DNA of 64,000 nucleotides from Zygnema cylindricum (taxonomy: Eukaryota; Streptophyta; Zygnematophyceae; Zygnematales; Zygnemataceae), in assembly GCA_037447655.1 (NCBI GenBank), contig JBBHKE010001925.1:126001-190000 (forward strand), in the 5' to 3' direction. Below, piece after piece: positions 8,945 through 56,679 of this stretch. Both the position numbers and the translations under genes were made by a program. Position 1 is the first letter of the stretch. Every line of letters begins with the position of its first letter. The notes beneath the pieces were generated by a model. The model was not told the DNA's origin and ran no database searches. It worked only from the letters and a program-made list of their open reading frames with translations.

Positions 8945-9660
8945 AAAATTTGTTCTTCTACGACCACCGGTGCAAGTGGAGGAGCAACAGTAGTAGTAGA
9001 AGTAGACATGATACACTCTCAGAAGCTATCAAGAATCCTACCAAACAGTTGTTTTCAAGTGCTCACCAAATCTTCAAAAACCATCCAAACCTCACAAAAC
9101 TATATCAAAATATAGAGTAGCATAAACACTAACAACTCACAAGTTTAAACACAATTGACTTGACAACACTCAAGATATAATGCTTAGAGGTTTCCCAAAA
9201 ATTGTCTGTAGTTTTACTACTTGGAGGTCTGGATACAGAAAGAGCTCTAAGTCCTAAGTCTTATACTTTCGGTGTTTTATCGCCGATACAAGTGTACCTG
9301 AGAGGTACGTCCAAAATCAACCCACATACTCAAAACTACATGTTCGTAATCGTGCCAACCCAATCTATCATCGTACAGTCAATATTACTCATAATCTATA
9401 TTAAGTGATTGTACAAATACTTGTAGGCTAAGTCACTTGTGATTCTCTTATAAATCTTGTCCGTTGACATGATTCATATCAATCGCAGCTGTGTTGTCCC
9501 GTATTGGATCACAATCACATCAACCGGGGTGCGGTGTCCCGCACCCAATCATATCCAAGATAGCAGCAGCTGCGTTGTCTGTGTGGATCATATCCAAAGT
9601 AACCGCAGCTTCGTTTGTTTTGTCTGTGTCGCAGCTTCGCTGCTGCGCTGCTCTGTCTGC
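8945..9660 (-). mobile_element. copia LTR/leader/gag start, minus strand
   Basis: The reverse complement reads gag start (ATG at 9010), leader and LTR, matching the plus-strand copy at 1.4-2.05 kb. Toward 9480-9660 it holds the same cagctgcg-type repeats. It meets a plus-strand LTR head to head at about 9660. Confidence 0.6.
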
Positions 9661-9663
9661 TGC

Positions 9664-10556
9664 TGTTTTTGGAAAGCTTTAAGTCTCAACAAATTTATAG
9701 GACCGCGGAAAAAATATATCTATAAGGACACGCGTCGTCACTAGAATCACAATGCAGGTTTTTGAATGGTGCCGACAACGCAGCTGCGATGCAGATGGAA
9801 CAAGCGCAACTGCGGTTTTTTTTGATATGGTTAGTACGGACAAACGCAGCCTGTGACGCAACGGGTCAAACGCAACTGCCGATATTTTGGTACATGACAA
9901 CGCAATTGCTACGCAACAGGACAAATGCAACTGCGGCTAACTTTTGTATGTGATAACGCAGCTGCTACGAAGTTGCGGATATTTGAATATAATCAGGAAT
10001 TGGACTGCGCTACTACGGTTGATCTGAATCAAGTCAATTGACGAGATTCACTTAGCCACGCGACAAGAATTTGATCAAATCACCTGTATAGGATTCTATG
10101 TCATATTGAGTGTACAATGATAGATTAGTTCTTAGCGTAAGTAGGTGCACTTAGACCTTAGAGGCAGTTTAGTTCTTTTGGATGTATCGTTTTGGAACAC
10201 TTGTATCGGCGGTACAGCACTATGTAGTTGGACAACTGAGTGAAGAGTATAAGACTTAGGACGTAGAACATTTTAAGTATCCAGACTGTGTAATCTGCAA
10301 ACTGTTTTTGGGTAACTTCTGAGTTGCATATGTTGGTGTATGTTGGATCAATTGAGCTGAAACTTTGGGAGTTGTCAGTCTTTGTGATATTCTATACTAT
10401 GGTATAGTTTGAAACAGTTTGGTTCATTGTATCAGATTTGGTGAGCTGTAGAAAACAGTTGCTTAAAAGGATTCTTGATTAGTTTTTGTAAGTGAGATCA
10501 TGTCTACTTCCACTACTACTGCTAATGCTCCACCTGCTCCAGTGGTTGTAGAACAA
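9664..10556 (+). mobile_element. copia LTR/leader/gag start, plus strand
   Basis: It starts tgtttttggaaagcttta, the counterpart of the LTR start at 1367. Repeated caacgcagctgcgat-like units run to about 9980. The leader ends in a gag start at 10500 with the same Ser/Thr-Pro opening. The copy is cut at about 10556, where minus-strand LTR sequence begins. Confidence 0.6.
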
Positions 10557-10739
10557 CAGCTGCAAGGCTGCTTTGCTGCTCTGTTAGCATAGCAGCTGCT
10601 GCTCTGAGTGCATAGCAGCTGCGTTGTCCTATACTGCACTCAAGTGATGACGCATATCCTTATGATACTTACGCTACAAATTACTACCTTTCAGCTGTCA
10701 CACTAATGTACCGAGACTTAAAGCTTTCGGAAATCAACA
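10557..10739 (-). mobile_element. copia 3' LTR fragment, minus strand
   Basis: On the minus strand the purine tract aagggag is followed by TGTTGATTTCCGAAAGC, starting at 10739. It is the 3' LTR start of the copia element to its right, truncated after about 180 bp. Confidence 0.6.
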
Positions 10740-10962
10740 CTCCCTTAAAGCTTTAGACTCAGTGTATCAGCGCAGCTGCGATGTCGCACTTAGTGCATCA
10801 TGGCAGCATAGCAACGCAGCCATAAAAGCGAAACATAGTTGCGCAGCCATAGCAGCGCAACATGGCAACATAGCAGTGCAGCAAACAAACTAATCACGTG
10901 GGTCCACTACATCCTAATTTTTGGCTATTGCTTCATGGTAGTATCGTAGTTGAGCTACTCAC

Positions 10963-13171
10963 CTATTCACTCAATCCTATTGCATTTCTAGAATAATTCA
11001 ATTTGGGTGCAGGAACAGTCTCAGTAAGCATATCACGAACCATTCTTGCATCTAGCAGACAGCACAATTTGATCACCCTAGAGAACACTTTTTCTCTTAC
11101 AAAGTATAATCGTACATCTATGTGCTTACTCTTGAAGTGGTGACTCGGGTTAGAGGCAATGGCAATGGAAGGATGGTTATCACACCAGATCACCTGTGGC
11201 CCAACTTGCATTTATCGTAGTTCTTGCAACATGGATTTTACCCATAAGAGTTCTTTGAGGGCCGAGCATGCTGCCATATATTCTGACTCCATTGTCGACT
11301 GCGCTGTAACCTTTTGAAGTTTATTGCTCCAACAACATGTTTTGTTCCCAATCTACAAAACGAATCCCGTGGTGGATTTCCTGCTTGGCATGTCGCCATA
11401 GCTTGCATCACTCCACGTTTGCAGCTTCACTTCTCCTCCGCCTAGCGTGAGTTTGAGGTCTTTTGTTCTTGCTAAATATCTTAAGACTCTCCTTGCTGGA
11501 TCAAAATCAGATTTTCTTGGATTCTCTAGATTTTTGCTTAGTACCCCAACTGCTGCAGCAATGTCAGTGCGCGTACAATTCATGAAATATATTAAGCTTC
11601 CCACTATCTGTCTATAAGGTATTAGTTTCATGTGATCATTCTCCCCTGACTGTAAATACTCGCTAAGAATTACACATGGTTCTGTCTCTTCACCCTATAA
11701 TTTTGCCGAAACTCCATTGGAGTTAGACATCCTTTTGAACCCCGCATTCCATACTCATCTAACATGTTTCCAATAGCCTTTTTTTGAGTTAATTTTATTA
11801 CTTTCTTATTTCTGTCCCTCTCTACCTGGATTCCCAGAATATACTTTGCCTCGTCAAGATCTTTCATCTCAAACCATGAGTTTAGAGCAGTTTTGATTTT
11901 GTTAATTTCAACCATTGATTTGCAAATAAATAGTAAATCATCTACATACACCGCTATATATACTATCCTATTTTCACCCTTTAGAACGTAGACAAAGTGA
12001 TCAGAACTTATCCTTTGAAATCCTAAACTGGTCAAGAATTCATCAAGCTTCAGTTTCCATTGCCTATCAGTCGGGTTGCAGGACACGGGTCCGGCTCGTT
12101 AGTGCGAACCGGAGAAATTTTTTCTTCAAAATCAATTCATTCCATTTGATTATAACCCTTTGCCACAAGTTTGGCCTTATATAGTTCAATGGTGTTATCG
12201 GGATTTAACTTCACCTTGAATACCCATTTGCTGTCGATCGCCTTTCGGTATGGAGGAAGTTCCACAAGCTCCCATGTTTGGGCCTCTATGATGGACTTGA
12301 TTTCGTGGTTTGCAGCCTCGATCTAGTGATTCCGCTGTGGTGATGAGAAGGCCTCTTGGATGGTCAAGGGCTCCCTTGAGGCTGTCGAGTAGGCAAAGTG
12401 AGAGGTTGCTTGCAGGCGGCTGGTGGATCTTCTTCCCCTCGGAAATCGTGAGGTTGAGATCGTCGGATGCCGCGCATTGCGCTGATTGCGCTGGTTGCGA
12501 TCCGTGTGTATTGACTGCTCGTTGTCTGGTTGGTACTGAACTGGATGAAGAATTCGGAGAGAGTCTGACTCTGGAGTCATTACGGAGAATGTTGCACTTG
12601 CGGGACAATTTCTTACATGCAATCTAAGATGCATACTCGTGTACTTTTTGCTGCTTTTGTTGTTCTGTCATTTGAAATAAATCTATCGAGTTTAGTTCAT
12701 CTTTGACAATGATGTTTCTTGCTACAACTATTTTTTGCCTCTCAAATACAAAGACTGTGTAACCTTTAGAGTGATCATTATATCCTAACAAAATACGTGG
12801 TAATCCCTTCGGTTCCATTTTCCATCTATCCGTAGATGTATCCAAAATAAAGCATTAACTACCAAAGACTTTGAAATGGCTAACATCTGGTTTGCTACCT
12901 GTCTAGATCTCGTAAGGAGTAGTGTTTACCGATCTTGATGCTATCCTATTTTTAATATAAACTGCACAATTTAGAGCCTCATCCTATAATTTCGGATAAA
13001 CATTTTTATTTGCGAGCATCAACCTAGAGCTCTCCGTGAGAGTTCTTTTTAGTCTTTCCGACACCCCATTTTTTCCCGGTGAATATGGAACAGTCAACAG
13101 ATGACTAATACCTTCCTCGAGTAAAAAGGCTTCAAATTCTTTCGAAGTATATTCACCACCATTGTTCGATC
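10963..13171 (-). pseudogene. Ty1/copia pol remnant (integrase, RT, RNase H)
   Basis: From high to low coordinates the minus strand encodes part of a copia polyprotein. An integrase piece comes first (about 12984-13171; NNGGEYTSKEF, then SPGKNGVSERL containing the last catalytic Glu), followed by the IN C-terminal segment (12624-12845; ILLGYNDHSKGY). A Ser-rich linker follows, then the RT entry (KAIDSKWVFKVK, about 12130-12240), RT from KLDEFLTSLG with an intact YVDD box (about 11945), and RNase H (WSDASYGDMPS, VIWCDNHPSI). Near 12090 the frame jumps from the ISPVR region to the QWKLKLD region, so the central RT domain has been deleted. Stops and frameshifts occur near 11650 and 12850-12980. 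Its 5' side is cut at 13171 by a repeat. It is not functional. Confidence 0.8.
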
Positions 13172-13437
13172 TGTCGAGCGTGCCCGAGAAACACAAGGGA
13201 AGGGCCCGCTGCCCGGAATGGCCAGTCTCGGCATCCTGCAAAGAACCCACCAATGCTAATGCTTCCCATAGTAATGATTATGCCCACTGCTGTCCCCATA
13301 CCGCCAAATAGGCATGCATGCACGGGTAGGGAATAGGGATGAGTGCATGGGAAGGCGAAAAGATCTCCCCTCCCCCTTACCTTCCCCATTAAGCCGGGGA
13401 AAGGGGTTGGGTTCTCGGTAATCGGGTCGGTGCTCCA
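13172..13437. repeat. short TG...CA repeat, copy A
   Basis: It begins TGTCGAGCGTG and ends GGTCGGTGCTCCA. It matches a diverged copy at 16043-16325, with shared blocks aagggaagggccc, gcatgcatgca, gggaaggcgaaaagatctcc and ggttctcggtaatcgggtcg. Copia sequence lies to its left and the 1.18-kb repeat to its right. It may be a short LTR; no target duplication is visible. Confidence 0.6.
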
Positions 13438-13441
13438 ATTT

Positions 13442-14621
13442 TGTGCTTAATCCACAGGAAGTCTATAACATTCGTTCCCTCAAAACCCACTGTTTTGATG
13501 CCAGGAAATTGCAATTTTACTCCGGGAAGTCCCCGTCAAAGCAAAAGAGACTACAAGTGAAGACACAAATGCACTACCTTGTGGACATATAAAAATAAAT
13601 AGGAATGGCTGTTTCAGATTTAACAATATCACCTTGACCGCAGAAATTAAAATATAAGATGGAAGATATAAAAGATGGCGAAGCAAGCTTAACATACCCC
13701 GACAATTTACGATGTCAATGGGAGAAAGGCGAAATCTCTCCTGATGACAGCGTAAATATGTATGGTGCTCCTTCAACCCTCGGTGTCCGCAGCTCAGAAC
13801 CGACTACACTCTTCTTAGTTTCAAGCAGCGAAAAATCCAAAAGTCACCCAAAGGGAAGGCAGTGCCAACCGCCAACCCGAACTATGATTCCCAAAATGGA
13901 CAAATCCAAAACAGAGATGGCAACAGAGTCAAACAACACAAAGATTCTCCAAAAGAAGGTTTGTTGGAATTTCTGAGGGTTTTCACAGGAGACAGTACTG
14001 AAAAGCAACTTGTCTCCTTCGGCCCCAAGTGCCTTATACAGCAAAAGCTTGTCCAGTTTAGGTCCTAAAAGTCAAACCTACGCTATTAGCCAATGAGCGG
14101 CCAGCAACGGCAATCAAACTGACATAAGACAAAATAATGTGTACTACGCTTGGGGCAAAAAGTTGGACCTCTGACTACGGCTAGATCCGCGGCCGGAAGT
14201 TATTATTTGTTCCATAGTTTTTAAGACAAAGTATTAAAAGGACACGGAAGTGCCAAACGTTGACTTAATGTTATAAATTAACCACTGGTCAGCTGAATCT
14301 GAACTGAATTGCTACAGACAGCTGACAGCAAAATCTAGATTACAGTCCGGAAGTCTACGTGGCAATCCACAATGTACCCTCCACTAGGGCTGGTGGAAGC
14401 TAGTACTAGGTGACAGAACTGCGATCTTTCAGACGGCAGAACTTGGTCGTCCAGCCTCCGTTAGGCACGAAACAAAGTGCGTCTTGTTCAGTAGAAGAAA
14501 TACTTCAATCCTTCCGGCGGGTTGCGCTGGCTTCTCCGTAATCTGAGAATAGTACGGGTCGGAAGGGTACGGAAATCCTCGGTAAGATAGAAGTGTGCCT
14601 GAAAAGCACTCGAGCTTGACA
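13442..14621 (-). repeat. 1.18-kb terminal-type repeat, low-coordinate copy
   Basis: It starts TGTGCTTAATCC and ends CTTGACA, giving TG...CA ends, and matches 23479-24645 in the same orientation throughout, with moderate divergence. The two copies bracket the Ty3/gypsy coding region and are best read as its LTRs; this one would be the 3' LTR. A TATAAAAG word lies near 13668. No convincing polypurine tract is visible beside it, so the LTR reading is tentative. Confidence 0.55.
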
Positions 14622-16042
14622 TAAATACGTTAGCAATGTGTAGGTACACGAAAGGAGGCTACAGGTTGCCAAATCCATCAATGCGAAATCACTTAAGAAA
14701 TTGTCCGAAGGCGAGTCTAAGGTTGCAATTATTTCCAAAGCAAACGGTACAACATTTTCGGGTCATGGTACACGAGGCCATACTCTTGGTGCACTTATAT
14801 ACCATGCCGCAAGGTCAGTAATGTTATGCTATACGTTGAAGATACATGGGATTACGTAATTTTTATGATATCCACATTGTGAAACGTTCTTTTCACTCCG
14901 TGGAAACACACAATGTCGACTCGAGAGCCGCTTCAAATACCTCTTTATAGAGAATATGGCAGGCATACATGGAACACTTTGTCGGTGACCACTTGCTTTC
15001 TTACACCTTTCGTTGTAATTACATTGTTAACGATTCCATATTTTGTTGTTTCATCCCCAACATGCGGACAAGAGAACAAATGCACGCCATATGCATAGAT
15101 ACGCTAACCAAAATTCGTACAATGTTTGTATGAGGGCGACGGGTGTTGTTGGTCAAGGCGTTAGTGAATTACGAGATAAAGCAAAAAAAGTAAATAAAGC
15201 GCGACAACATTTAGTATTGTAATAAGCCACACCCTAATCTTTATCCTCAAACAAGAGCAAATATTACTAAATGTCTCACTGAAAGGAGTCACAATAAGGT
15301 TATAGGAATCAACGATAGCTAAATTATCATCAATATGTTGCACCTCGCGTGACTTTCGACAAGAAGGGAAAGGAGTGGTGAAACTTTACATGGTGACGAT
15401 AGTAATCTGGTACTAAACCTCAATAGACTTTCTAAACCTCATCAGCCAATATAGTAGGGGAGTTGTCTACCAATAGCGTGAGGAATGATCCATGAAGTCA
15501 GTGCCCAACTCCCTAAGTAAGGTGTTGGTGTTCATATACAGGAAGGAATCAAACGAAGATCCTCGAAAGGACTATGAATGTAACTTTTCTATGAGCGACT
15601 TGTCCTTTTGGGCGATAAAGCACATTAGGTCAAACCCAGTTTACAAGTCAATCGGACTCCTTCGCTTGGAAGGCTCAAAATAGAGGTATAGTAAAAACGG
15701 GCCCTGAGGGACTAGATTGCTAAAAGAGGTGGCATTGTGGGCCCACAATCAGCAATAAAAGCCTTAGGGAAAGATTACAAACAAGGGAAGTAAAGTACAC
15801 CGTGTACAAAGACCCAGGGGACGAGACGTAGTGTAGTGTTGGTGTTTTACGCCCCTTTGCACCCAAATGGTTTTTCTATCGCAAGTTTTGCAATAATGTT
15901 TCATCATTCTTCATGTAGCCGTTTGGCCAGCACAAACGGAATGAAACTCATAAATTGGATGAACCTATTTATTTTTATGGCAATAAACGTTTCAAAAAAT
16001 TTTCACGGACAATTCGGTGTATTATGTTTCTTTTCTAAAATG
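14622..16042. other. non-coding stretch inside the Ty3-like interval
   Basis: Only short frames and no recognised domain on either strand. It lies between the putative 3' LTR and the second short TG...CA repeat and may be retrotransposon 3' UTR or older inserted sequence. Confidence 0.35.
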
Positions 16043-16325
16043 TGTCGAGCGTGTCTGAGTAACGTAAGGGAAGGGCCCAAAACCCGGAGCAGCCGAAATC
16101 GGAGTCCTGCAAATAGCCCCCAAATGCGAATGCTTCCCAAAATAATAATCATGCCCACTGTTGAACCACATCCCTCCTATAGACATGCATGCAAAGATAG
16201 GAGAGACTCACAGACCAAAAGTACGAATGATTGCACTGGGAAGGCGAAAAGATCTCCCCTCACCCTTCCTTTCCCATTTGGCCGAGAAAGGGATTTGGGT
16301 TCTCGGTAATCGGGTCGGTGCACCA
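16043..16325. repeat. short TG...CA repeat, copy B
   Basis: Diverged copy of 13172-13437, ending GGTCGGTGCACCA. On the minus strand the purine tract aagaggaggggaaa stands directly before it, as a polypurine tract would before an LTR. This competes with the view that the 1.18-kb repeats are the LTRs of the neighbouring element. Confidence 0.55.
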
Positions 16326-16378
16326 ATTTCCCCTCCTCTTAGTCAGCCGTGACTAAGAAAAAGAAATAATTACCCACC

Positions 16379-16780
16379 TCATTCACAATTCCCGCAAAAC
16401 CATGGACTAGGGGATAGAGAGCGTGAGTCACATGAGGAGGGGAGACAAGCTGGGCGCCAATACTGACCATACTGATTGCAAACCAAGATGTCATGCGGCG
16501 GGGAGGACGGGTTGCATGATGAAGAACAGGAAGGAGGATCGGCAAAGTAAGTCAAGTGGAAAGTGGGTTCGTCTTCCAATCCTCGGAGATGGCAAGGGGC
16601 CACATTGATCTTGTTCTCTTTAATTTTTCGACCATCTTTCCCCTCCAAAGTTAGAACTCCCTTGTTTGAGACTTCCACCACTTTCAAAATCACCCGCCCG
16701 GCAGAAATGTCAAGCGTGTCCTTTTTTTGTTGCATTTGATATACAAAGTCTCCTGGCATAAATTGGCGCTGTCTGGGCAC
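16379..16780 (-). CDS. integrase C-terminal region with degenerate PHD finger
   Basis: A 133-codon minus-strand frame carries the end of the Ty3 integrase. Residues 8-60 form the SH3-like tail typical after the integrase core (GDFVYQMQQKKDTLD, then LKVVEVSNKGVLTLEG). Residues 85-132 look like a C4HC3 PHD zinc finger: C85, C89, C101, then the block QYGQYWRPACL with C112, and a closing WFCGNC with C129 and C132. Two expected ligands are replaced, a Cys by Tyr104 and a His by Arg109, each explainable by one base change. PHD fingers commonly bind histone H3 tails, so an intact version could have guided integration; that role is inference. The frame opens at the first Met and is preceded by integrase sequence in other frames. 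Confidence 0.6.
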   Translation of the reverse strand: MPRQRQFMPGDFVYQMQQKKDTLDISAGRVILKVVEVSNKGVLTLEGKDGRKIKENKINVAPCHLRGLEDEPTFHLTYFADPPSCSSSCNPSSPPHDILVCNQYGQYWRPACLPSSCDSRSLSPSPWFCGNCE

Positions 16781-16889
16781 ATAATCTCCGTTTCGGCGCT
16801 AAGAATACCATAATTGATCCCGGTGTGGTGCCGCTTGTAAATTCCACATGGCGAGAGGTATCTCCCGGTGGGAAATTTTGGCATGATCA

Positions 16890-17720
16890 GCGATCATTTT
16901 CTCTACAGTCCCCATGTCATCCATTTATGGTAGGACCACTGCTTGGGCCGAGGCAGGCCCGGGCAGAATGGGATGTCGTCCGAATAAAATGAAGTAAGGG
17001 CTATACGAGTGGAGAGAAGCCTGTCTGCTGAATCGGTATCCCATGGCAATCCAATGCACACTTTTGTCCCACTCTCCCAAGTCCTCTTCAACTGCATATT
17101 TCCGTAGTGACCGCTTCACTGTCTGTACGCACCTCTCGGCCAAACAGTCGACTTGAGGGTGGTCGCAACTGGTAAGTCGATGGTTGATGAGGCATTTCTC
17201 CTACAGATTGGTAAACTCTCCGGCGAATTCTGATCCCTGGTCTGTGAGAACCTCTGCAGGCGCTCCAAATTGTGACAGGACCCTCTGCAAGAAGGCGTCG
17301 GCAATGGACTTGGACTCCTTTCGGGGCAGAACCACAAGCTCTATCCATTTTGAGAAATGTTCAATTAGGGCTAGGACAAAACGATTCCCACGTCTGCTAG
17401 TCGGAAGAGGTCCCAAAAGATCCAAAGACCACCGATAAAACATCCCCGGATGGGAAGAGAATGTAGCTCAGTCCCGCCTTTTTTGTCAAAGAAGGCCTTA
17501 ACTCAATCACATGAAAACCAAATCTATACAATTCGGTTAACTTGGGCCCGCAACCCGTGCCACCAATAGGAACCTGTAACTAGGGAAGTGGTCCGCTTCT
17601 GTCGGAAGTGTCCACATTGCTTATGGAGATTAGTAATCAGAGTTTCTCGATCTGATGGAGGAGGAACCACTTTTCTTGTACCGTCTGACCATTTCCGGAG
17701 GAGAACACCTCGGTCCTATT
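16890..17720 (-). pseudogene. Ty3/gypsy integrase
   Basis: The minus strand shows a zinc-binding segment with LHKQCGHF (about 17610-17640) and, downstream, a YWWHGL segment. The catalytic core lies at about 17200-17443, with the first Asp in SLDLLGPLPTSRRG and the second in VLTDQGSEF. The third acidic residue is in the AERCVQTVKRSLRKY helix (about 17100-17140), and GRHPILPG follows. The spacing fits a D,D-35-E integrase of the chromovirus/gypsy type. Frame changes near 17200 and 17450 and a stop in the linker disrupt it. The PHD-bearing C-terminus follows directly. Confidence 0.8.
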
Positions 17721-17843
17721 CATACGCCGCCATCCGTGTCTGAACTCGGGACAATTGAACTCCAACCAAGTGGGGAAGAGGCGATCCCTGCTGGATGGAT
17801 TGGAGAGCCTCGGAGTCGTTCCAGATGTCTTTCTGTCCGGCTC

Positions 17844-18534
17844 CTATGGGTGTCCTCCCTCAACATCTGCTGCAAAAGTGGACAATGCCCTTCCAGATGG
17901 AGGAAGCCAAATTAAGGCGGAGGATGCTTGAATGGGTCCCAAACTGATTTTCGGGTCTTTGAAATACCGAGCCTCGGTGGAATCCAGTGTAGAAGGATCA
18001 GGGTTTCGGCTAAATCCGTCGGGATTCCCATGGATTTCCCCTGCCCGGTGAAAAATGCGGAAATCATATTCCTGTAGGATAAGCACCCATCTGGCGAGTT
18101 TGCCCGTCAACTTACTATTCTCCATAATCCATTTCAGGAGTTTGGTGGTCGGTGATCAGTGTGAAATGGACCCCGTAGAAATAAGGCCTGAAATGTTGGA
18201 TGGCCCAAACAACTACCAAAACCTCCTAATGGTAACTGCTATAATTTCCCTCAGCTCGGTTGTTGCTCCGGCTGGCGTAAGCCACCACATACTCGGCTCC
18301 AGCGTCGTCAATTTGAGCCAAAACCGCTCCCAATCCAAACATGCTCTAATCAATGTAAAGAAGGAAAGGTCTCTCGTGATCAGGCATCCGGAGCATTAGG
18401 TGCTGCTTCAGGGCATCTTTCAAGAATTGGAAAGCGATCTGATGTTCCTCGACCCACAACCATTCTTGATCTTTCCGCAATAGCTTATTTAGGGGCTGGG
18501 CATGACTACTGAACTCAGGAATAAACCGACGATA
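17844..18534 (-). pseudogene. Ty3/gypsy RNase H
   Basis: After the RT connection segment (RRFIPEFSSHAQPLNKLL), RNase H motifs are readable on the minus strand: FLLYID then GLGAVLAQ, the NRAEGNYSSYH segment, and LITDH. The segment ENSKLTGKLARWVLILQEY and a FRIFHRAGEIHGN-like motif (17844-18125) close the domain. In-frame stops sit after FLLYID, after SSYH and before YRRF, and the frame shifts near 18130. Confidence 0.75.
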
Positions 18535-19507
18535 TTAGTTGGCCAGGCCGAGAAAGGTGCGCAAAGCAAAAATGTCCTGCGGGGGAGGAAGAGCGTCAAG
18601 GGCTGCGACCTTAACCATTTGGGGGCCCACTGTCCCGCGAGTCACCTCATGTCCGAGGTAAATAAGTTTTTGCACCCCAAAAATACCCTTGCCCGGGTGA
18701 CATTTCAAGTCCGCTGCTTGAAGGGCCCGGAGAACGATCTGGATATGCTCCAGGTGTTCTTCAAAAGTCTTAGAGAATATGATCACATTGTCGATGTAGC
18801 ACCTGGCAGAATCGATTACTCGGAACGCTTCATCCATGGCCCATTGGAACTTGGCTGGTGCATTCTTGAGTCCGAAGGGCATATAAATCCACTTATAAAG
18901 TATAAATCCGGCTCAGAATGTCGTTCTCTCCCAGTGTTTTGGTTCCATGGCAATTTGGTTGAATCCATTCTTCATATCTAGTGTGGAGAAGATGGTGGCT
19001 CCGACAAGAGAGTCGATAATCTCTTCCGCGGTTGGCATCGGATAACGGTCAAGAATGGTGGTCGTGTTCAGCATGCGGTAATCCCCACACATTCGAAAAT
19101 CTACAGATTTCCCAGATGAATCCTTCTTACGAGGAAGAACTGTGGGGGAAGCAAACCCGGTAATCCCCACACATTTGAAAATCTACAGTTTTCCCAGATG
19201 AATCCTTCTTACGAGGGAGAACTGTGGGGGAAGCAAACCCATGGAGTCCTGTGCTTTCCTGAACCAACCCGGCGTCTACCAAAGTTTGGACCTTTGTGGT
19301 GATAAACTCTTTCTCCTTGAAGCTGAGAGGATACTGTTTTTGCCAAATTGTTGCGGTTTCGTTGATCAAGTCAATACGAAAAGGGGTTCCTTTGTATATT
19401 CTGACATCTGTTTCTGACCAGGAGAAAACATGATTGTTCTTGGCCAAGAGTTCCGTTAGCTGTTCTTTCTGTTGAGGGTCCAGCTGCTCCCCCATAGTCC
19501 AGTCCAT
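18535..19507 (-). pseudogene. Ty3/gypsy reverse transcriptase
   Basis: Minus-strand RT blocks in order: ETDVRIYKGTPFRIDL, a LVDAGLVQEST segment, FASPTVLPRKKDSSG with CGDYR, STLDMKNGFNQIAM, MPFGLKNAPAKFQ, the active-site box CYIDNVIIFSK, and YLGHEV. Two defects are notable. The box reads YIDN where YIDD is expected, which would abolish polymerase activity. An 82-bp tandem duplication (19076-19157 and 19158-19239) repeats the FASPTVLPRK-to-CGDYR block and shifts the frame. A stop follows ERTTF near 18913. Confidence 0.85.
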
Positions 19508-19799
19508 CTTTCCCTGTTGAACTGCGGCCCAGGCTTTCGGTGGTCTTCTTAGAGATTGATGTCGAATTCTAGCCCACCCTCTGGATCCGCCTCTACTCCT
19601 CCGGATAATACTTTACTGCTGACAACTTTCGCTAAGCTGCCCTTTTTTGAACTATAGTTCCCCCCCACTGAAGAAACTCCTGGGTGTAGAATTTTTCTCC
19701 TCTGTCTCCCCCCCTCTAGCTGCAAAGTGGCTTGCATGGACAACAATTTTGGAGCTTCAAGGTAACTTCTGCGCAATCTGGAGAATGGAGAGTGGAATA

Positions 19800-20944
19800 T
19801 GCAAGAGCGTGTTTTGTAACCCATGTAATGGCATTCAATTCCATGCTCTTCCCGATTAAGCTGCATTTTTCCAGGTCTGATATACCTGGTGCGGCCGTGG
19901 TTCCCAGATGGAATCCCATGGCTTGTTCTCGTTCCGAAATTGTTGGTGTCGTCCAAATTCCTGCCTTGCTATCAAAAATCATCCCTGCTGCTCCTTTTTT
20001 GTAGGCGTGACTGTGAGGAAAAGAAACCAACGTGGAGAGGGCTCGGCGAGGAGATCCGGGTGTGTTACATCGCAAGAAAGGAGGACGATCCGGTTTGGTT
20101 ACAGGTGTGGTTATTCTCCCTTCCACGAGTATTTGCTGTACTGATGTCTGAGGTTCAGGGGTTTGTTTCTCGAACAATTGCCGGAGGACTGGAAGCGGGA
20201 TCATATTGGTCCAATATGGTCGGAGTCTGTGTGCTCGAGATCCCATCTGAGCAGCGTCGAAAACCAAAGGAGCTCCCAAAGTCCGGGTTACTTGTTTCCA
20301 ACTGTCAGCAACATGTTTTCGTTTATCATCCCCGAATGGACGTTCTCCAGGATGTACCCCACTACTATGTCCTGGAGCTTCTGCATCCACGATATTGATT
20401 TAATCATTTGGTAGAAGGTGCGACTACTGCGGTCTTGATGCCCTTTTCCTTGTCCTGCGAGGGAGTATCCCTGACAAGGCCATCCCGCCACAACCAGATC
20501 TATTCTTCCCAGACTTGCTAAATAAGGTGCTATGATGCTATCAACGTACTGGGGAAGACTCCGGTGAGGTTTGGAAATGGAAGACACTGGAAGCAGCTGA
20601 GGATATAGGCGGTGCATTTCATGAAGGCAATGTTCGCTGACAGCTCGAGCTTCTAGTGAAATCTCCACTGCTGTATATGATTCTACCCGATATCTTGCTT
20701 TCAGAACTGCTTCCAGATATCCTGCTTTCAGAACTGCTTTCAGATCGAAACTGATTCCTGAAAATAAAGATAAAATCTGAAGTCCGGTGTCGGTCACTGT
20801 CAATGACACCACTTGTCTATTGAAGTCCTCGTTACCAGTTTTGGTTGGGAAAACATCTAACCAGGTCGTAGAATCTGTTTTCGGTAATAGTAACAAGGCC
20901 GAGAATGTCTGATCTACTCCCCGCCGGAGTTCTGCTACCTGCAA
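19800..20944 (-). pseudogene. DNA (cytosine-5)-methyltransferase carried by the retrotransposon
   Basis: A C5-methyltransferase catalytic domain lies in two overlapping minus-strand frames. First frame (20288-20944): motif I LSLFSGI (residues 58-64, cofactor binding), motif IV AGWPCQGYS with the catalytic Cys at residue 157 (20474-20476), and motif VI ILENV (199-202). Second frame (19716-20390): motif VIII GSRAHRLR (20220-20243), a motif IX block SEREQAMGF (about 19911-19937) and a motif X block LIGKSMELNAITW (about 19821-19859). One frameshift near 20290-20310 separates the halves. A 27-bp in-frame tandem duplication (20689-20742) adds nine residues after motif I. All landmark residues survive, so the domain decayed recently or lay intact in the parent. 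It follows the protease and precedes RT, so it was probably part of the polyprotein. Its proposed role is methylating the element's own DNA. Confidence 0.85.
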
Positions 20945-21057
20945 TAATCTATTTGTCTATTCCCCTTCCCATTGCTTGGAAATCGGGAATTGCTAGATGT
21001 CCTCTGCGATATCTGTAGAACTATCAAACAGTTCCGCCGGAGAGGATGTAGAATACA

Positions 21058-21837
21058 CTAGGTAACAACCAGAAACAGGAACATTTGTTTTCCCCTGGTT
21101 CCATAAATCCAAAGGAACCACCACTTTGGTTCCTTCGGGATTTCAAGGGTCTCGTACGGTGCATTCATCCGGGTCCATGTAACCATTCCCAACAAGATTT
21201 CAAACTGATTCCCTTCCACCACTAAGAAAGGAAGCGCAATTTTCACCTTCTGTTTAGCATCATCGGAGAATTCAATGTCCATGGCTTTGATGTTTCCATG
21301 GACTGGCTGGCTGCCGCTACTTAGCGTGCTTAAGCACATGTTACTTGGGCAGATTTGAGGTCTGAGTTCCTCCGGCATTTTCTGCAATGCTGAAGTGGTG
21401 ATAAGGTTTGGAAGTGCTCCGGTGTCGACCACAGCGTCTTGGTACCCGCCGTACCCATTAAGTTTGAAGTTGCCCGTCCGGTTCAGAATGAGCGCTACGG
21501 ACAAGGTTTTGTAGTCCCTATCCACCATAGGGGTTTTAGGCTCTGCAGACAAATATACCGCCGTGGGTGGTGTCGCCCGGTCGACTTTGTCTTTTCCAGA
21601 ATGAATTTCTTCTCCCAAGGCCTGAATGATGATTTCTTCGGGCAGATTATGGGAGGAGGCGAGGGTCTTGACATGAAATACATATGGCATATGCTGACTA
21701 GTATGACAGAGGCTTGCAGGGAGTACGCCTTGGGGATGGGACGAATCTGTTCCTGATCCTGTTCGTTCTCCTTTCATCCTTCTAAATCGGAACGGGCGGT
21801 GAGTTTTGGGTGCCTCCTCGTCCGGACGTTCCGCCAT
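21058..21837 (-). CDS. Ty3/gypsy aspartic protease region
   Basis: A 259-codon minus-strand frame contains a retropepsin-like domain: AVVDTGALPNLI with the active-site DTGA at residues 138-141, and a second hydrophobic block FEILLGMVTW near residue 210. In family members this domain cuts the polyprotein. The first 100 residues are charged and may be the end of gag. The next frame toward lower coordinates is the methyltransferase. Confidence 0.75.
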   Translation of the reverse strand: MAERPDEEAPKTHRPFRFRRMKGERTGSGTDSSHPQGVLPASLCHTSQHMPYVFHVKTLASSHNLPEEIIIQALGEEIHSGKDKVDRATPPTAVYLSAEPKTPMVDRDYKTLSVALILNRTGNFKLNGYGGYQDAVVDTGALPNLITTSALQKMPEELRPQICPSNMCLSTLSSGSQPVHGNIKAMDIEFSDDAKQKVKIALPFLVVEGNQFEILLGMVTWTRMNAPYETLEIPKEPKWWFLWIYGTRGKQMFLFLVVT

Positions 21838-21849
21838 GAACCGCTCAAA

Positions 21850-23198
21850 CTAATCCTGAGTGCTCTGTTTGTCCTCTTCTAGTGATTTCTTCTCCCGTGG
21901 TGGTTTCTCGCTCTTGTAATTTTTGAAACCGGGAGGCAATTTAGGCTTAGGAGGAAAAAGAGGAGGTTGAGTGGGCTTGATCCCAAGGCATGTGTCACTG
22001 TTCAGCACTACTACCCGGGGCGTGAAAGATATAGGCCCGATGGCCTTCCGCTTGTGGTCTTTTTGGCTCATTTTATGCTTGTCTCTCCTCTGATCAGAGG
22101 TTGAGGAGCGGAGTTGTCTACGACCATTTCCCACTCCCACATTCCAAGCTCCGTGAAGAAAACTGCTTGCATGGTGGGCATTTGGGGGTTCCAAATCCCA
22201 GCCCATCAAATCATCGTCGTTAGCACCCGCTGTGCTTTGAAGCTCCAGCTCCGCTAGCTTCTGTAGTAATTCCTGTTTTTGTCGTTGGAGTCGTTGCGCT
22301 GCTGTAAGAGGAGCATGCCGAGAAGACGATCCCAACCGAAGTGCCGCCAGTTCTGAAGCCATGGCAGCCATCTGTTGACTCTACTGTTTGATTATTACCT
22401 CCGGTGTGAATCTTGCTGGAGCAACCGTTGCTCGTTTCTTGGTTTCTGGTGTAGGCAGCACTGGGCGCCCCCAAGGGTAAAGGAGTTGTAGGGGAAGAAA
22501 CGGGACTGGAAGAAATTTCTTCTTTGGGGAGAGGAAAATCTCCCTTGTTGTCCCTGGTCAAACTTCCCCCTAGAGACTCTCGACTCTCCTCTCCCTTCCC
22601 GCTTCTCCTTACGAGACCGAAGTAGTGCGCCCTCGCGAAGGCCTGCTGGCTGCAGTGTCCTGAGAGGACGATAGAGGAGGGCGAGAGTAGGGAACCCTCC
22701 GGGACCGGTCCTGCACCAAAGGAGAAGAGCTGCTTTCAGAGGAACTGCTCAAGATCTCCACCACTCCCCCCACAGGTCTAACCGGCCTGGCCCGATCTGT
22801 CCGAGCTACTCTCTGCACTAACTCCTTCTTAACCTTCAGCTCATGGAGATCGTGAAGGGAAAGGAGTTCCTTGCGACCAAGGCGGCTGGGATCCTGTAGA
22901 ACTACAGGGTTAACTGAATTTCGGCCATGGGAATTTTCGATTGGGTATGAAACCCGACCTCCGAAAGAGGACCGACTTGGGGCTCCCGATGAGCTTGCCT
23001 CTTGGGCCGAGCCTTTGGTGAGACTCGGTTTCTTTCCTGGGTTTGTGTCTTGGTCTCCCTTCTTTCCTCGGCAAAGGTCCTGGCTGCCTCTGCCAAGGAA
23101 GGGAAATGCTCAGGAGTGAGACTAAGAGGGGGTGTTGACGAAGGTTGTGGTTCCGGCTGTTTTGGAAGAGTCTCAACTCTAACATGCTCAGGCATCAT
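21850..23198 (-). pseudogene. Ty3/gypsy gag-like region
   Basis: Three overlapping minus-strand frames (22902-23198, 22220-22561, 21850-22371) precede the protease. They are rich in Pro, Ser, Arg and Gln; one has a leucine/glutamine helix (AAQRLQRQKQELLQKLAELE). No CCHC zinc knuckle or clear capsid motif is visible, so gag identity rests on position. Several frame changes break it. Confidence 0.5.
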
Positions 23199-23478
23199 TC
23201 CCTTGAGAAACTGCTCTATATTTCAAGCTGAGGTGAAAGAAACTGCTTCCTCGGGAACCTACGACTCTTCCTTTTGTGCCAGCGCTTCTTGCCTCTCCCG
23301 TCCTTCCTGACTGGCACCGGAAAGATTCTTATCCTGAGCTTCTCCCCCCCCACGATGACAAAGGTATCGAAAGGAGAGGGAAGGAAAGTAACCAAAACTC
23401 ACTTCCACCAAGAGAGCTTCTAAAGTCAAAAGCTCATATCCCCTCTAATCCGAGCAGACAGGTGGGCTTTTCAGTACT

Positions 23479-24645
23479 GTACTTATCCACGGGAAGTCTA
23501 TAGCATTTGTTCCCTCAAAACCCACTGTTTCGATTACAAGGAAGTTGCAGTTTTACTCCGGGAAGCTCACGCCAAAGCAAAAGAAACTACAAGCGAATGC
23601 ACAAATGCACTACCACGTTGACATATAGAAATAAATAGGGATGGCTGTTTCAGATTTATCAATATCACCTTGACCACAGAAATAAACATAAGATGGAAGA
23701 TATAAAAGATGGCGAAGCAAGCTTAACATACCCCGGCAATTTATGATGACAAAGAGAAAGAGGCGAACTCTCTCCCAATGGTAGTGTTAATAGGTATGGT
23801 ACTCCTTCAACCCTCGGTGTCCGCAGCTCGGAACCAACCAGACTCTTCTCAGTTTCAAGCAGCGAAAAATCCAAAAATCACCCAAAGGGACGATAGTGCC
23901 AACTACCCATCCGAACTATGATTCCCACAATGGACAGATCCAAAACAAACATGGCAATAGAGTCAAACAAAACAAATATTCTTCCCAAAGAAAGTTTGTT
24001 TGATTTTCTGAGGGTTTTCACAGGAGACAGTACGGAAAAGCAACCTGTCTCCTTCGATCCCAAGTGCCTTATACATCAAAGTTTGTCAAATTGCAGGTCC
24101 AAAAGTCAAAGCTACACTATTAACCAATGAGTGGCAAGCAAGTGTAAGGGAATTGACACAAGAAAAACTAATCCGTACTACACTCGGGGCAAAAAGTTCT
24201 GCTCCGAACTGCGGCTGGAATTGCGGCCGGAAGTTATTATTTGATCCACTATTATAAGACAAAGTACTAAAAAAGGAACAGACTTGCCAGACTTTGACCT
24301 AATGTAATTAATGGACCAAAAGCCAGTTGTACCTGAACTAAATTGCTACAGACAGGTAAGAGCACAATCTAAACTGCAATCCGAAAGTTTACGTGGCAAT
24401 CCCCAATGTACCCCCCACTAGGGCTAGCGGAAGATGATACTATGTTACTGAACTGCAATATTTGAGACGGTAGAACTTTGTCTTCCGGCCTCCGTTAGGC
24501 GCGAAATAAAGTGCGTTCCGCTCAGTTTATGGAATACAAGGATCTGGTCCAGCTCGGTGCGCTCATTCTTCCGTACTGTGAGGACCGTACAAGGGAAAGA
24601 GCCGGAAATCTTATAAAGAACCTTTCAGAAAGCACGAGCTTGACA
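23479..24645 (-). repeat. 1.18-kb terminal-type repeat, high-coordinate copy
   Basis: It starts TGTACTTATCC and ends CTTGACA; the same sequence and orientation occur at 13442-14621. It would be the 5' LTR of the minus-strand Ty3-like element. No standard tRNA primer-binding site could be identified beside it. Confidence 0.55.
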
Positions 24646-25490
24646 AATGACACGCGTAAGAATTCCACTAATTTCCTGGGCTATTCCCTTTATTTGGGCT
24701 TTCGCTGGTTTTTGGTTTTTTGAGAATGAGCGTTCTTTTACCAAATATTGATCCAATCGACCTAAGTTGGTATTTTGATGAACTTTCGACCCGCGAACCT
24801 TGGCCGTCCATATCATTTGTTTCAATATGGACGGTCAGGGTTCTTTCTTCGTCCATTTTGCCCCAATTACCGAATATTAAGTCCTATAAGGAAAACGGTT
24901 ATGTACGTGTATCAGGATAAAATACACCGTGAATTAACACGTAAAACACCTCCGCCGACTTTTATTTCAAAAGCAGACCAGTGTAGCTGAAACATAGAAA
25001 CTACTGTAAAGTATAGTTCACCGAAGAGCTGCTCCGCTAACCAAGGGACTAAAATTTGAACAGATATAAATTGCAGCGCAAGAGCGACTTCAACTCCCAC
25101 CTAGAAACGACATAGCTCAATGAAAGATCAGCTTTTGCTACATGGAGAATACAGCTGAAGTATTTTCAGTAAAGTATTACACTGTTATACGGAGCAAGAC
25201 CGCTTTGGAATGAAAAGGCGACTTTAGTGCGATCCGCATCCAATACTGTACCGTCAAAATGATTAGCGAATCTGTGTCAAGATTACAGTAAATTACAAGT
25301 GTGCTGAAATGTACGGGATTACTACACTGTTATGTATTGCAATGTTCTGTACTGTACTGTAGCGTGACGAAAGAGGACTTTACAACACAGGTGGAGAAAT
25401 TCTTCAACTAAATTTATCAAAACCAACATTTGCGTTGTTCTATGTCTTTTATGTCGGTCCTCATGTTAACACGAATGTTCGATAATATAA
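24646..25490. other. intergenic, nothing recognised
   Basis: A short local inverted repeat (ggccgtccatatcatttgtt against caatatggacggtc, 24801-24836) is the only structure noted. Confidence 0.35.
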
Positions 25491-31243: not shown

Positions 31244-32760
31244 TCAGTCATCGATGTCCATTTCATCTATAGTGTCCTCGTTACTTCCATCATCATGAGT
31301 TTGTTCGCTTTCTTCATCTTTATCAATGAGAATATCTATGTCATCCTCTATTTCCGCATGTGAAACGTAAACACTAGTATCATCATCCTCATTTGTCTTT
31401 TCCCTCATGACATAATCACATAAAATGTCTCGTATTTGAGATCCTCGAATTCTATTGGTTTGATAACCACCCAAACGTTTTTGGACATCTCCACTTTGTC
31501 GTGCTCGCCGTTCTCGAGCTTCGGACATACGTGTGGATCTTTCTCGAATGCCATTTTCATTTTTTGATTGCTCGACTTGAAACTCTTTCTCCCAATTAAT
31601 GTTCGTCTCGTTCCTTGCAATAGAAATGTTATGAATGATACAAGCAGCAATAATAGATGTAAGCATTGATTTCGTTTTTGGATTGTATATCTTTAAAAGG
31701 TACCTCCATTGGCCTTTGAGCTTTCCAAACGCTCTTTCCACCACCATCCTCAACGATGCATCTTGGAGGTTAAATCTTGTTTGAGATGCATTAAGATTCA
31801 AACCAGGGTAAGGAACAAATAGGTTTGGATGGAGGGCAAAACCGGCATCTCCTACGAGGTAAGGTTGCACATTTAAATTATTCCATCGGAAAATGTCCCC
31901 GCTTTCTTGCATACGTCTTTGAAAGTCTTGCCCCAATTTTGACCTTCTAAAAACTCTCGAGTCGTGCATTGCTCCAGGAGAGCCTAAACTTAGGTTAATA
32001 AATCGCATCTTATGATCAACGACTGCTTGAATTACAGTAGAATAATTATGTTTTGCATCGAAGTAATCATTTGCTGACATTTCATCCCCAAGTGTAATCT
32101 CTATACGTGTGCAATCTATAGCGCCAACACAATTCGGCAACCCTTTGTCCTCCTAGAAAAAAAAAATGGTATCTTGAATTTCTTCTTCTGTCGGCCATCT
32201 AACTCAATGCTCAAGCCTTTTGACAATCGCCTCATGACTTTAAGGAATATCCTCACCACAGTTGAGGGTCCAACACCAAACTGTACGGAAGTACGTGTGA
32301 TCTCCCCTTGATGTCCCAATCGCATCAATGCTATCAAAACTTGTTTCACTGCGCTTAATTCTCTATTAGGAAGGTTACGAAGTCCCCGAGGGGGTTTGGT
32401 TTCCAAGTCTTCTTTTAATTCGTTTACCAAAAATTGGACCGTGTCTTTTTGTAGTCGAAACAATTGTTGAAATTGTTTTTCGCTGTAGCGTGGTAACTCT
32501 TCGTCCACCCAATGCATACTCCTTAGGTTAATGTAGTAGTTTTCATCGGGATCACCTTCGAAATTGGTATTTTGTTGGATACATTTTGTTAAAATTCGAG
32601 GCATAACCTTAGCAATAGCATTTTGAACCATTTGGTGGCCGTGGTGGTCAAAAAGTAACGGTGGCAACAAGGTTCTCAAAACCATTTGCAAGACGGTCAT
32701 TAATGCAAGTGTTACATTTTGAATTATCAATGTCACATTTTTTTTTTGTTCTGGTGTCAT
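31244..32760 (-). pseudogene. PIF/Harbinger transposase (DDE superfamily)
   Basis: The minus strand first encodes an N-terminal helical region with a PPRGLRNLPNREL-type block and an RTSVQFGVGPSTVVRIF helix-turn-helix-like block (32116-32760). It then encodes the DDE_Tnp_4-like nuclease (31244-32140): first Asp in VGAIDCTRIEI (residue 9), GSPGAMHDSRVFRRS, second Asp in LVGDAGFALHP (residue 98), Glu in VVERAFGKLKGQWR (residue 135). All three catalytic residues are present. The halves are separated by a frame change near 32195 and a TAG after a ten-T run at about 32152; the ttttttttttctag could instead be a splice acceptor. The C-terminal 100 residues are acidic (DDDTS, EDDIDILIDKDEESE). It lies inside matching terminal repeats. 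Confidence 0.85.
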
Positions 32761-33457
32761 TTTGCAAAATAATGTCCACTAATCAATGTTTTATGTCAAT
32801 CACCATTTGTTTTCCAAATCACCAATTTCACCTTTGGATACCTAGTTCCATCCTCTTTTCCAATAGTATTCTGAAATTTAAGTGTAATCTCAATATACAA
32901 TTCCAAAGTTGATTTCTAAATTTTATAATTAACTTCAGTAAGTTGCTTATTTTTACAAATGTTACCCTTTGTTGCATTTTTCAATTTTCAAGGAACGTTA
33001 CGATTACAACACCAACTTCAATTGGAGGTTCTCATGATTTTTATTCAAATTTACCAATCAATTTTTTTATTTTTTAATCTTTATATTACTTTTGATTTTT
33101 TCCCTTTTTTTTTGTGGTTTATTGCCTCACCATTTGATGTGAAAGACAAAGATGGTCGGCTTTAATGTTTGCCTAATTTCATTTCGATGCTTTAATTCCC
33201 CCTAATTGGTATATAATAGATTCCACACCATATGTAAGTTGGTTATGTCTCTCTCAACTTACTTGCTATTAAGAAGTTTGTTAATTGGTAGTGGCCACCC
33301 TTGCGATCCAAGCTTACTAGATATAGCTGGTCGTGACACTTACAGAACCCTCACACAATGCACAGCTTTTGAAGTAGTTTTTTTTTTTTTCTTGAGAAAA
33401 TTGCGATAAATCACTCGTAAAAAGCTCTCAGTAAAAAGGTTTTCTGACAGTTTTTCT

Positions 33458-47681: not shown

Positions 47682-48670
47682 TGACAATGAGATCAACAGT
47701 AAATAAGATCGTACTTTAAAAAAAAATACTAAACACACAAAAAAAACAAAAAAGTTCAAAATTTCCACAAGAGAGTAAGAGGGAGGGAGGGAAGGAGGGA
47801 AAGTGAGGGACGGGAAAGGAGTGGGTGAAAGGGGGGGGGAAAGGAAGGGGAGGGAAAGGGAGGCAAAAGGAGGGAAAAGGAGAGAAAGGGAGGGAACAGA
47901 AAGGAAAGGGAGGGGAAAGGGCGGTCTAGTGTATGGTTAGTGTCCTCCTTGAAAAACAATTGAGAACAGTAGCATAAAAAAATTAGCATAAAAGAATAAC
48001 ACAATTGGACATTGGATAGAATGAGCGTTTGCTTCGAAAATACAAATTCGGACAGAAGTAGTCGTCGCCCAAAAGTTTGGGGATTTTTAGGGTTTTCAAG
48101 GGTTTCTAAGGGTTTTTTTAGGGTTTTTCTGGGTTTTTTATTTAGTGAACTTTCTGACCTTATCACGTATTCAACATAATTTTGCGGTCGAAGGAAGTTG
48201 AAGAGAATTCTTAAGAGTATTTTAATAGGAGAAAGAAACGGTGAGCTCCTTTAGAATAAATAATGCATATTTATAAATGTAGATAGTTATATAAACATAT
48301 AAATATATAACCATGTACATTGATGCATTGGATTCGGGCTCTGAACCGGATTCGACCATCAATGGTAAGAGGAGCGCAAAGTGTGTAAATATATATATAT
48401 TTTTTACACTGTTTTTATTTTGAGTGTGTATTTCTTAAACACTTTTTTTTTATGTTTTTTGTTTTGTTATGAATGTTAGTTTTTTCTTTTTTAATGTTAA
48501 TTTTCTTTTTTTAAACGTTTTTCTTTTTAAATGCTTTTTTTTTTATGCATGAGAGTTTAGTTAGAGATGTAGGGCCAGATAAATTAAAAAGCACTATGGT
48601 AAACCATCTGAGTCCAGGGTACAAAAGGGGTGGCATGGCCAAAACCGAAAAACTACCAGCAGGGGAATAA
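47682..48670. repeat. 0.98-kb dispersed duplication, copy 2
   Basis: Second copy of the segment at 42934-43916, in the same orientation. It is followed directly by an A-rich region, whereas copy 1 is followed by unrelated sequence. Confidence 0.9.
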
Positions 48671-49123
48671 AAAAAACAGGAAACACAAAAACAAAAAGAA
48701 AACAACAACAAGGAAAATAAAAGCACCCTAACCCAAAATGAAAAGCACGGCAACTGGAAAAACCCAAATCTACAACCCCAATCCCAACTCAATTAAATAT
48801 GGATAGAGATCAACTATTCCATGCATTCCACAAAAAAAAAAAAAAAAAAAAACAAAAAAAAACAAAAAAAAAAAGCTAAACAAAACATAAGAAGAAAAAA
48901 AAAACCTTTTGGGAAAGATCTAAACCAAGAAAAATTTCCAAAATTCGAATTTTGAAAAAAAAAAAAGAAATTGTATTCCGGTCAATTTTTTTTAGGATCT
49001 GAAAAAGGTTAAAAAGAAAAGTCAATAAAACCCAAAAGTGTCAAAAAAAAAGGAGAAAAAGAAAAAGAAAAGAAAAGAAAAGTGAAAAATTACAACATAA
49101 TACCCTTTCTAATTTTTATTTTC
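48671..49123. other. A-rich 3' flank of the PUS7 gene
   Basis: Long A runs (48830-48870) and gaaaagaaaa repeats on the plus strand. It is the downstream side of the minus-strand gene. No element recognised. Confidence 0.4.
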
Positions 49124-49433
49124 TCATCCATCTTTTACTTCAATTTCTCGGGTTAAAATCATATTTTTTTCGTCTTTTTCGTCTTTTTCTTCAGATTTTA
49201 TCCCGGGTTCATTTAAACTTTTGTGAAACGAAGTCTGCGAAAAAAATGACATCAAAAATAGATAAATAAAATAATTAATAATAAAAATCAGTTCCCTTTC
49301 TCCTGTTCTCGCTCCATCCCTCCCTTGTTTTTCTTCCTCCCTCCCTCTCTCCCTCCCTCCTCCCTCCCTCCCTCCCTTCCTTCACCTCCTTCTCCCTCCT
49401 CCCTCTCATTCTTACGCTCCTTTTTTGTGAAGA

Positions 49434-49469
<36 letters not shown>

Positions 49470-49990: not shown

Positions 49991-50036
<46 letters not shown>

Positions 50037-51135: not shown

Positions 51136-51172
<37 letters not shown>

Positions 51173-53282: not shown

Positions 53283-53325
<43 letters not shown>

Positions 53326-54555: not shown

Positions 54556-54600
<45 letters not shown>

Positions 54601-56580: not shown

Positions 56581-56679
<99 letters not shown>

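Follow-up and report, generated by a model that had tools for sequence, protein, structure and literature searches.

A first-pass annotation of a 64,000-nucleotide stretch of the Zygnema cylindricum genome (here called the window) placed a DNA cytosine-5 methyltransferase between the protease and the reverse transcriptase (RT) of a Ty3/gypsy retrotransposon. Does this enzyme belong to the element, how would such an element insert, and what could it do with a methyltransferase? We compared the window, which is part of contig C1444, with the rest of the same genome (352.8 Mb in 2689 contigs) and with related proteins from other organisms. The explanation that we consider probable, though by no means settled, is that the element in the window is dead and belongs to a self-primed Ty3/gypsy family. 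In the Pol of this family, a DNMT3-class, presumably de novo methyltransferase separates protease from RT, and a PHD finger follows the integrase; the family may insert through a circle, methylate its own cDNA and be steered by the PHD finger.

The decayed element in the window

The element (16043..24645, minus strand) is a decayed copy of Ty3/gypsy type with the form repeat A, coding region, repeat B (A-coding-B) and the ends TGTC...GACA. It is flanked by CATT on both sides, as the left (24646..24649) and right (16039..16042) target-site duplication. Repeat A (23478..24645, minus strand) starts with TGTCAAGC and would hold R-U5; repeat B1 (16043..16329, minus strand) ends with GCTCGACA. A purine-rich tract (16325..16340, minus strand) lies directly ahead of repeat B, and a putative self-primer site, ACAGTACTGAAAAGC, lies at the boundary between A and the internal region (23466..23480, minus strand), with its complement at 24027-24041 (one mismatch).

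Both repeats have a counterpart nearby: A is 83.4% identical to 13442-14503 over 23478-24537, and B1 is 74.7% identical to 13169-13441. We ruled out that 13169-14503 supplies the 3' repeat of the element, because the element terminates at GACA and has CATT at either side, and the A of this second unit opens with its own TGTC after TTTA, not after GACAGC. It is a separate A-B unit (13172..14621, minus strand), a solo repeat from a related element of the methyltransferase type, with unmatched flanks (TTTA and GATC) and a K2P distance of 0.23 to the A of the window element.

Copies in this genome were assigned to family I (the window copy, L012, L013 and L018) or family II (L009-L011 and L014-L017). 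On the minus strand, the window element encodes protease, methyltransferase, RT, RNase H, integrase and a decayed PHD finger, in this order. Upstream lies a gag-like region with broken frames (21850..23222, minus strand), which gave no family match in a Pfam profile search. The aspartyl protease frame (21058..21849, minus strand) matched Asp_protease_2 at 0.0047, below the cut-off, and is 62-82% identical to the protease of seven family I loci, which represent five copies, and 51% identical to that of L003.

The methyltransferase (19716..20956, minus strand) is of the DNMT3 class, an assignment made on intact relatives (below). It is spread over two overlapping frames with one frame change, namely frame a (20288-20956) and frame b (19716-20399). 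Frame a matched Pfam DNA_methylase at 2.5e-7 (30.9 bits; cut-off 22), frame b by itself had no Pfam match, and the two frames joined matched at 1e-8. The sequence reads LSLFSG (20756-20773), GWPCQGYS (20462-20485) and ENV (in 20330-20347), followed in frame b by GSRAHRLR (20220-20243), REQAMGF (19911-19931) and SLIGKSME (19839-19862), which we take to be motifs I, IV, VI, VIII, IX and X, respectively. A 27-bp tandem duplication (20683..20736, minus strand) adds nine residues that are absent from the other 19 alignment rows. With RVT_1 matched downstream at 4.9e-14, the position and the readable motifs claimed in the first-pass annotation were borne out.

The remaining domains are degraded. The RT (18535..19612, minus strand) is broken, contains an 82-bp tandem duplication (19076-19239), and its YxDD motif reads YIDN (18787-18798). 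Only a piece of RNase H is left (17844..18155, minus strand; RT_RNaseH 0.0074, below the cut-off), the integrase core has broken frames (16925..17467, minus strand; rve 6.6e-11 in 17201-17467), and the C-terminal PHD finger of pol (16385..16534, minus strand) reaches just 0.15-0.77 in Pfam and has two altered zinc ligands. The window copy is dead, because of the frame change in the methyltransferase, the in-frame stops in pol, the RT duplication and the YIDN motif. No CpG-decay signal was seen in this copy (C>T of 0.157 at CG, 0.196 at CHG and 0.160 at CHH); the observed/expected ratio of CpG was 0.67 in the element versus 0.95 in window positions 26001-64000.

The window contains other mobile sequences as well. 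Two Ty1/copia remnants (176-2046 and 8951-13168) lie in opposite orientation and are 85% alike over 1036 bp. The second, with an RVT_2 match of 8.5e-23 at 11670-12098, adjoins the solo A-B unit, and the break lies within the apparent copia integrase. On the minus strand at 31244-32778, matches to DDE_Tnp_4 (1.1e-29) and, in an overlapping frame, HTH_Tnp_4 (0.00032, below the cut-off) presumably represent a Harbinger/PIF-like transposase. From about 48000 to 58700, extended tracts of purine/pyrimidine and simple repeats, strongly skewed between the strands, give rise to large low-complexity frames.

Intact copies and relatives

A Pfam search of the same genome yielded at least 123 methyltransferase loci (123 of the 782 candidates scored, all above the cut-off), and frame a as query gave at least 151 matches including itself, the next best with 84% identity. 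The uninterrupted copy for which the first-pass annotation had proposed a search was found at L009, where a single open frame of 2395 amino acids (aa) encodes protease, methyltransferase, RT, RNase H, integrase and PHD finger. Its Pfam matches comprise DNA_methylase (2e-11), RVT_1 (1.4e-29), PHD (1.5e-9), RNase H and integrase, besides two weak matches below the cut-off (zinc knuckle, 0.0086; protease, 0.012). In L010, a 1757-aa open frame holds the methyltransferase together with protease and RT. L012 (1525 aa) and L013 (1520 aa) have uninterrupted frames without the protease: the frame shared in family I runs from methyltransferase through RT, RNase H and integrase to PHD, and the protease has a separate frame just upstream (3808-4470 in L012; 3477-4313 in L013). 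In L013 the protease frame, which scored 0.00021 in Pfam (below the cut-off), is in the same reading frame as pol (4317), with one stop between them. Hence, the methyltransferase is fused into a gypsy Pol, as established by single open frames in other copies of the same genome. Neither condition that the annotation had named as refuting came true: a profile search does find DNA_methylase, and in the uninterrupted L009 and L010 the domain shares one frame with protease and RT. In family I, the protease alone has a frame apart.

The PHD partner proposed in the annotation is real in family II, where four copies scored 1.5e-9 to 2.2e-10, but has decayed in the window copy; the scores of two family I copies (2.4e-4 and 0.0044) fall short of the cut-off. 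In Pfam, L009, L010, L012 and L013 matched rve and H2C2 integrase and no tyrosine recombinase. At C1374:31633-35348 (L013 and L020, a family I copy), about 3.7 kb of other sequence with frames on the opposite strand separates B1 from a second B, apparently through an insertion that is nested or rearranged.

A profile of the methyltransferase family was compared with PDB. The first 29 of the 56 rows were DNMT3A, DNMT3B or DNMT3C (3.2e-24 to 6.3e-19), followed by 4onj, labelled "DNA methyltransferase" and presumably a DRM (2.6e-12), DRM2 (3.2e-9) and HhaI (9.4e-9); no row among the 56 was labelled DNMT1. The structure predicted for the L013 domain (pLDDT 88, pTM 0.87) was used in a fold search, in which the best 50 of 220 PDB folds at E <= 0.001 were all DNMT3. 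By profile and predicted fold of these intact relatives, the enzyme is of the DNMT3 class. A recent viral source of the methyltransferase was unsupported: the phage enzymes are distant, with every one of 389 matching phage records below 60% identity, and nine IMG/VR loci match over just 26-76 residues.

In other organisms, frame a alone retrieved none of 1221 candidates, the read-through window query yielded 19 related proteins among 3302 candidates, and the methyltransferase part of the long family I Pol yielded 41 among 7992 scored. Relatives were found in Calypogeia fissa (P0004, P0019), Closterium NIES-53 and NIES-54 (P0006, P0015, P0041, P0058), Marchantia polymorpha (P0022, P0030, P0034) and Klebsormidium nitens (P0053), with further ones from metagenomes. 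Domain mapping of 60 proteins revealed 24 with both RT and methyltransferase; the methyltransferase precedes RT in 10 of these and lies behind RT and RNase H in 14. This second order, in which the domain sits between RNase H and integrase and a PHD finger is also present, corresponds to a single clade of the methyltransferase tree (25 rows, comprising 17 with this order, six compatible pieces and two fragments; SH-aLRT 99), and likewise of the RT tree (13 rows; support 98/92). The methyltransferase tree was built by a quick method and rooted on a phage enzyme, its outgroup consisting of a DNMT3A fragment plus two phage enzymes; pieces shorter than 240 residues and loci repeating another locus were left out. 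A PHD match was present in 23 of the 28 integrase-bearing proteins among the 41 relatives. The other five were P0046, which is cut within the integrase, P0053, which ends shortly past it, P0059, whose precomputed Pfam list includes PHD, and the complete-looking P0040 and Closterium P0041, in neither of which domain mapping gave a PHD match.

Methyltransferase-carrying retrotransposons are already a published class, as the first-pass annotation had stated (PMC5890265). The text of that paper describes KnitGypsy-Dnmt3 from K. nitens, which resembles the present elements in its gypsy domains, its DNMT3-class enzyme in Pol before RT, its A-coding-B-A-B repeats and its purifying selection. P0053 falls within the methyltransferase tree of our elements and is, we infer, a copy of KnitGypsy-Dnmt3. 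It has the same order of methyltransferase, RT, RNase H and integrase; hence, this domain order, put forward as new in the annotation, is not new. The elements described here differ in the PHD finger behind the integrase, where P0053 stops too soon for comparison, and in the target duplications, palindromic joint and self-primer, which we did not find described in the text of PMC5890265. More widely, in the open-licence literature, with PMC5890265 represented by its text without figures or supplements, we found no report of the PHD partner, the second order, the target duplications, the palindrome or the self-primer. Passages of PMC12344493 mention DNMT3 members embedded in retrotransposons and name LTR Copia and DIRS families.

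Repeats, joint and putative self-primer

The sister copies have A-coding-B-A-B repeats, which the window copy lacks. In C1344, A (931 bp), coding region, B (242 bp), the dinucleotide GC, a 100% identical A and B follow each other between two TTGG flanks. C829 and C2602 have the same layout, flanked by AAGG and CCCC, so that a target duplication surrounds each of the three family II copies in which both ends are present and the A repeats share at least 96% identity. The older C449 shares the layout A-coding-B.GC.A-B and matches in three of four flanking bases (TCAT/GCAT). Among the other copies, C1407 is without the first A, rearrangement or interruption affects C1042 and C1374, and in C1915 the sequence stops short of the far end. 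A plain LTR at both ends occurs neither in C1344, C829, C2602 and C449 nor in the window copy. TG..CA ends go together with 4-bp duplications in the TTGG, AAGG and CCCC copies, and with CATT in the window copy.

The B.GC.A joint reads GACAGCTGTC, a perfect palindrome, in L009-L011, L014, L016-L018 and L020. It occurs nowhere else in the 273,746 bases of loci examined, and L012 and L015 are without it. Genome-wide, the 18-bp joint has 276 exact places and its reversed control none. Of 112 methyltransferase places, 103 lie on the contigs up to C1084, a range covered by 100 of the 276 joints. In 19 of these 103, a joint lies 2.4-4.8 kb downstream on the same strand, versus 0 of 103 in each of three control placements; four more places have one at 6-12 kb. 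A variant, GCTCGACAGCTGTCATGC, consists of a family I half and a family II half in contigs C182, C311 and C895, which suggests a third family.

At the boundary between A and the internal region, a word recurs as its reverse complement in mid-A. Exact matches of 15-21 nt were found in six of eight loci tested: 18 nt in C1344, 15 in C449, 21 in C829, 16 in C2602, 21 in C1915 and 15 in C1374. C544 has a 93% match over 29 nt, and the rearranged C1042 has none. The C1915 word sits 44 nt past the boundary; at the boundary itself, C1915, C1042 and the window copy give 7. Shuffled A sequences gave a match of at most 11, with the first 20 nt behind the boundary as query and letters rather than dinucleotides preserved. 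The words vary among subfamilies while the pairing stays. A tRNA-Met primer site was rejected, with 34 matches at up to three mismatches versus 32.9 expected. Sequence reading further shows a poly-G tract before B in all seven loci with B1 listed, and A|B joints that vary by a few bases among loci, the pattern that end joining would give.

We propose that the RNA starts in mid-A and that its 5' end anneals to the site directly behind A, priming minus-strand DNA. Plus-strand DNA would begin at the poly-G tract ahead of B, giving [B.GC.A]-coding-[B.GC.A], the ends of which may be joined into a circle with an A|B joint. The integrase would then cut the GACA.GC.TGTC palindrome inside a repeat, so that the insertion reads A-coding-B.GC.A-B and is flanked by a 4-bp duplication. 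The integrases of a spumavirus and of HIV-1 have been described as cleaving palindromic 2-LTR joints (PMC1180852, PMC1905944). A circle with one repeat could yield A-coding-B, the form of the window copy. The case for this origin is weak, since C1374 and C544 end exactly at GACA after B1 with no target duplication and the window copy alone of the three has one, whose four matching bases could be chance.

Tf1-type gypsy elements are self-primed, and their primer site is complementary to their own sequence, as is the putative one here; the methyltransferase, PHD finger and split repeats are found only here. Self-priming is predicted for 12% of plant LTR elements (PMC6317226).

We regard as tentative, but worth entertaining, the fuller reading of a streptophyte gypsy lineage that inserts via a circle, in which the palindromic joint within the repeat serves as substrate for a DDE integrase and each provirus is circularly permuted. 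In one particle, its Pol would combine a writer of methylation with a histone reader, and the circle may be both methylated and directed to chromatin. A less likely account sees an ordinary element of the KnitGypsy-Dnmt3 type with inherited split repeats and DIRS-like reverse transcription, without a circle cut by integrase. It draws on the Klebsormidium element, which combines A-coding-B-A-B repeats with gypsy domains according to the text of PMC5890265, and on the homologous P0053 with its identical domain order. However, target duplications of 4 bp together with TG..CA ends indicate a DDE integrase, and the putative self-primer site and poly-G tract at LTR-type positions point to copying of the retroviral type. 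SymbioDIRS-Dnmt3 from dinoflagellates likewise has a DNMT3 domain in Pol, split repeats and more than one domain order, but it has a tyrosine recombinase instead of a DDE integrase, and the same text calls it unrelated to the gypsy element.

Possible roles of the methyltransferase and PHD finger

A DNMT3-class enzyme that sits inside Pol is placed to meet new cDNA, and it may methylate the cDNA or circle prior to insertion. Methylation of new cDNA has been proposed for DIRS elements, and the Klebsormidium enzyme tested negative in yeast, a result that was rated inconclusive (both from the text of PMC5890265). The first-pass annotation conjectured that such elements could mark their own copies and thereby do less harm or evade surveillance. 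The PHD finger of L009 is nearest in sequence to those of PHF12, BAZ2B, WSTF, KDM5 (Lid, 5B) and PHF21A. Several of these read unmodified H3K4. By analogy with chromodomains in chromoviruses, the PHD finger might read the histone H3 tail and steer insertion. Chromoviruses also carry a chromatin-reader module behind the integrase in Pol, which is a chromodomain there and a PHD finger here (PMC6317226 and PMC3605345). Orchid Ty3/gypsy elements are another case of gypsy elements that gained an epigenetic enzyme, but theirs, an m6A RNA demethylase, is encoded by an extra open reading frame (PMC9289625).

Alternatively, the methyltransferase could act on host chromatin near the insertion, guided by the PHD finger, or silence the element after insertion, rather than methylate cDNA. 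We consider this improbable, though a serious contender: the DNMT3 class and a PHD finger in the same polyprotein, with best matches among host chromatin proteins (PHF12, BAZ2B, WSTF, KDM5B, PHF21A), speak for it, whereas two domain orders within Pol fit an enzyme packed alongside RT.

More doubtful still is a domain that has lost DNA methyltransferase function and now has an RNA substrate or a structural role. Across 80 methyltransferase rows, motif IV read PCQ in 51, ECQ in 21 and PCE or PCX in two, and six were missed by the pattern. The alignment has PCQ here versus PCN in DNMT3A; ECQ occurs in family II and in several of the relatives, and it is spread over more than one clade. Selection was estimated as dN/dS (NG86) from open copies only, a choice that favours low values, after exclusion of copies with stops or less than 85% coverage and of pairs with saturated or very low dS. 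The family I methyltransferase (eight open copies, 28 pairs, 13 usable) had a median dN/dS of 0.255 (0.094-0.595), and 11 listed between-subfamily pairs of the 28 had a dN of 0.16-0.21 with a dS of 2.3-3.2 or saturated. In family II, dN was 0.13-0.18 with saturated dS in eight of ten pairs, and none of the ten was usable; in three pairs measured for both domains, this dN of 0.13-0.18 compares with 0.036-0.045 for RT. Likewise, comparison of the window copy with five family I copies gives 53-58% identity for frame a and 73-89% for the RT pieces. Judged from these sequences, open methyltransferase copies look to be kept by selection, yet the domain changes faster than RT. The ECQ rows and the faster change favour loss of function, but conserved motifs, fold and selection argue against it, as do SymbioDIRS enzymes that methylate CG in yeast (text of PMC5890265). 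A host methyltransferase gene beside unrelated retrotransposon debris, as a broken copy amid other mobile-element remains might suggest, is practically negligible, being refuted by the single open frames in L009, L012 and L013 and by the many relatives.

We return to the preferred explanation of a self-primed family with writer and reader in one Pol. Among the points that count against it are the negative yeast result, the lack of CG-biased C>T in the window copy, ECQ in 21 of 80 rows, family I PHD scores below the cut-off and the lack of a PHD match in P0040 and P0041. Elements of this kind were known from one streptophyte alga before, and now form a lineage with members in Klebsormidium, Closterium and two liverworts. 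Its copies include very young ones, such as C1344 with identical repeats, and one genome holds 276 exact joints. The 2-LTR circle as a substrate for insertion is an idea now mostly set aside; if the circle model is true, it would be revived, in a natural element. The pairing of writer and reader within a single Pol makes it testable why a transposon would methylate DNA.
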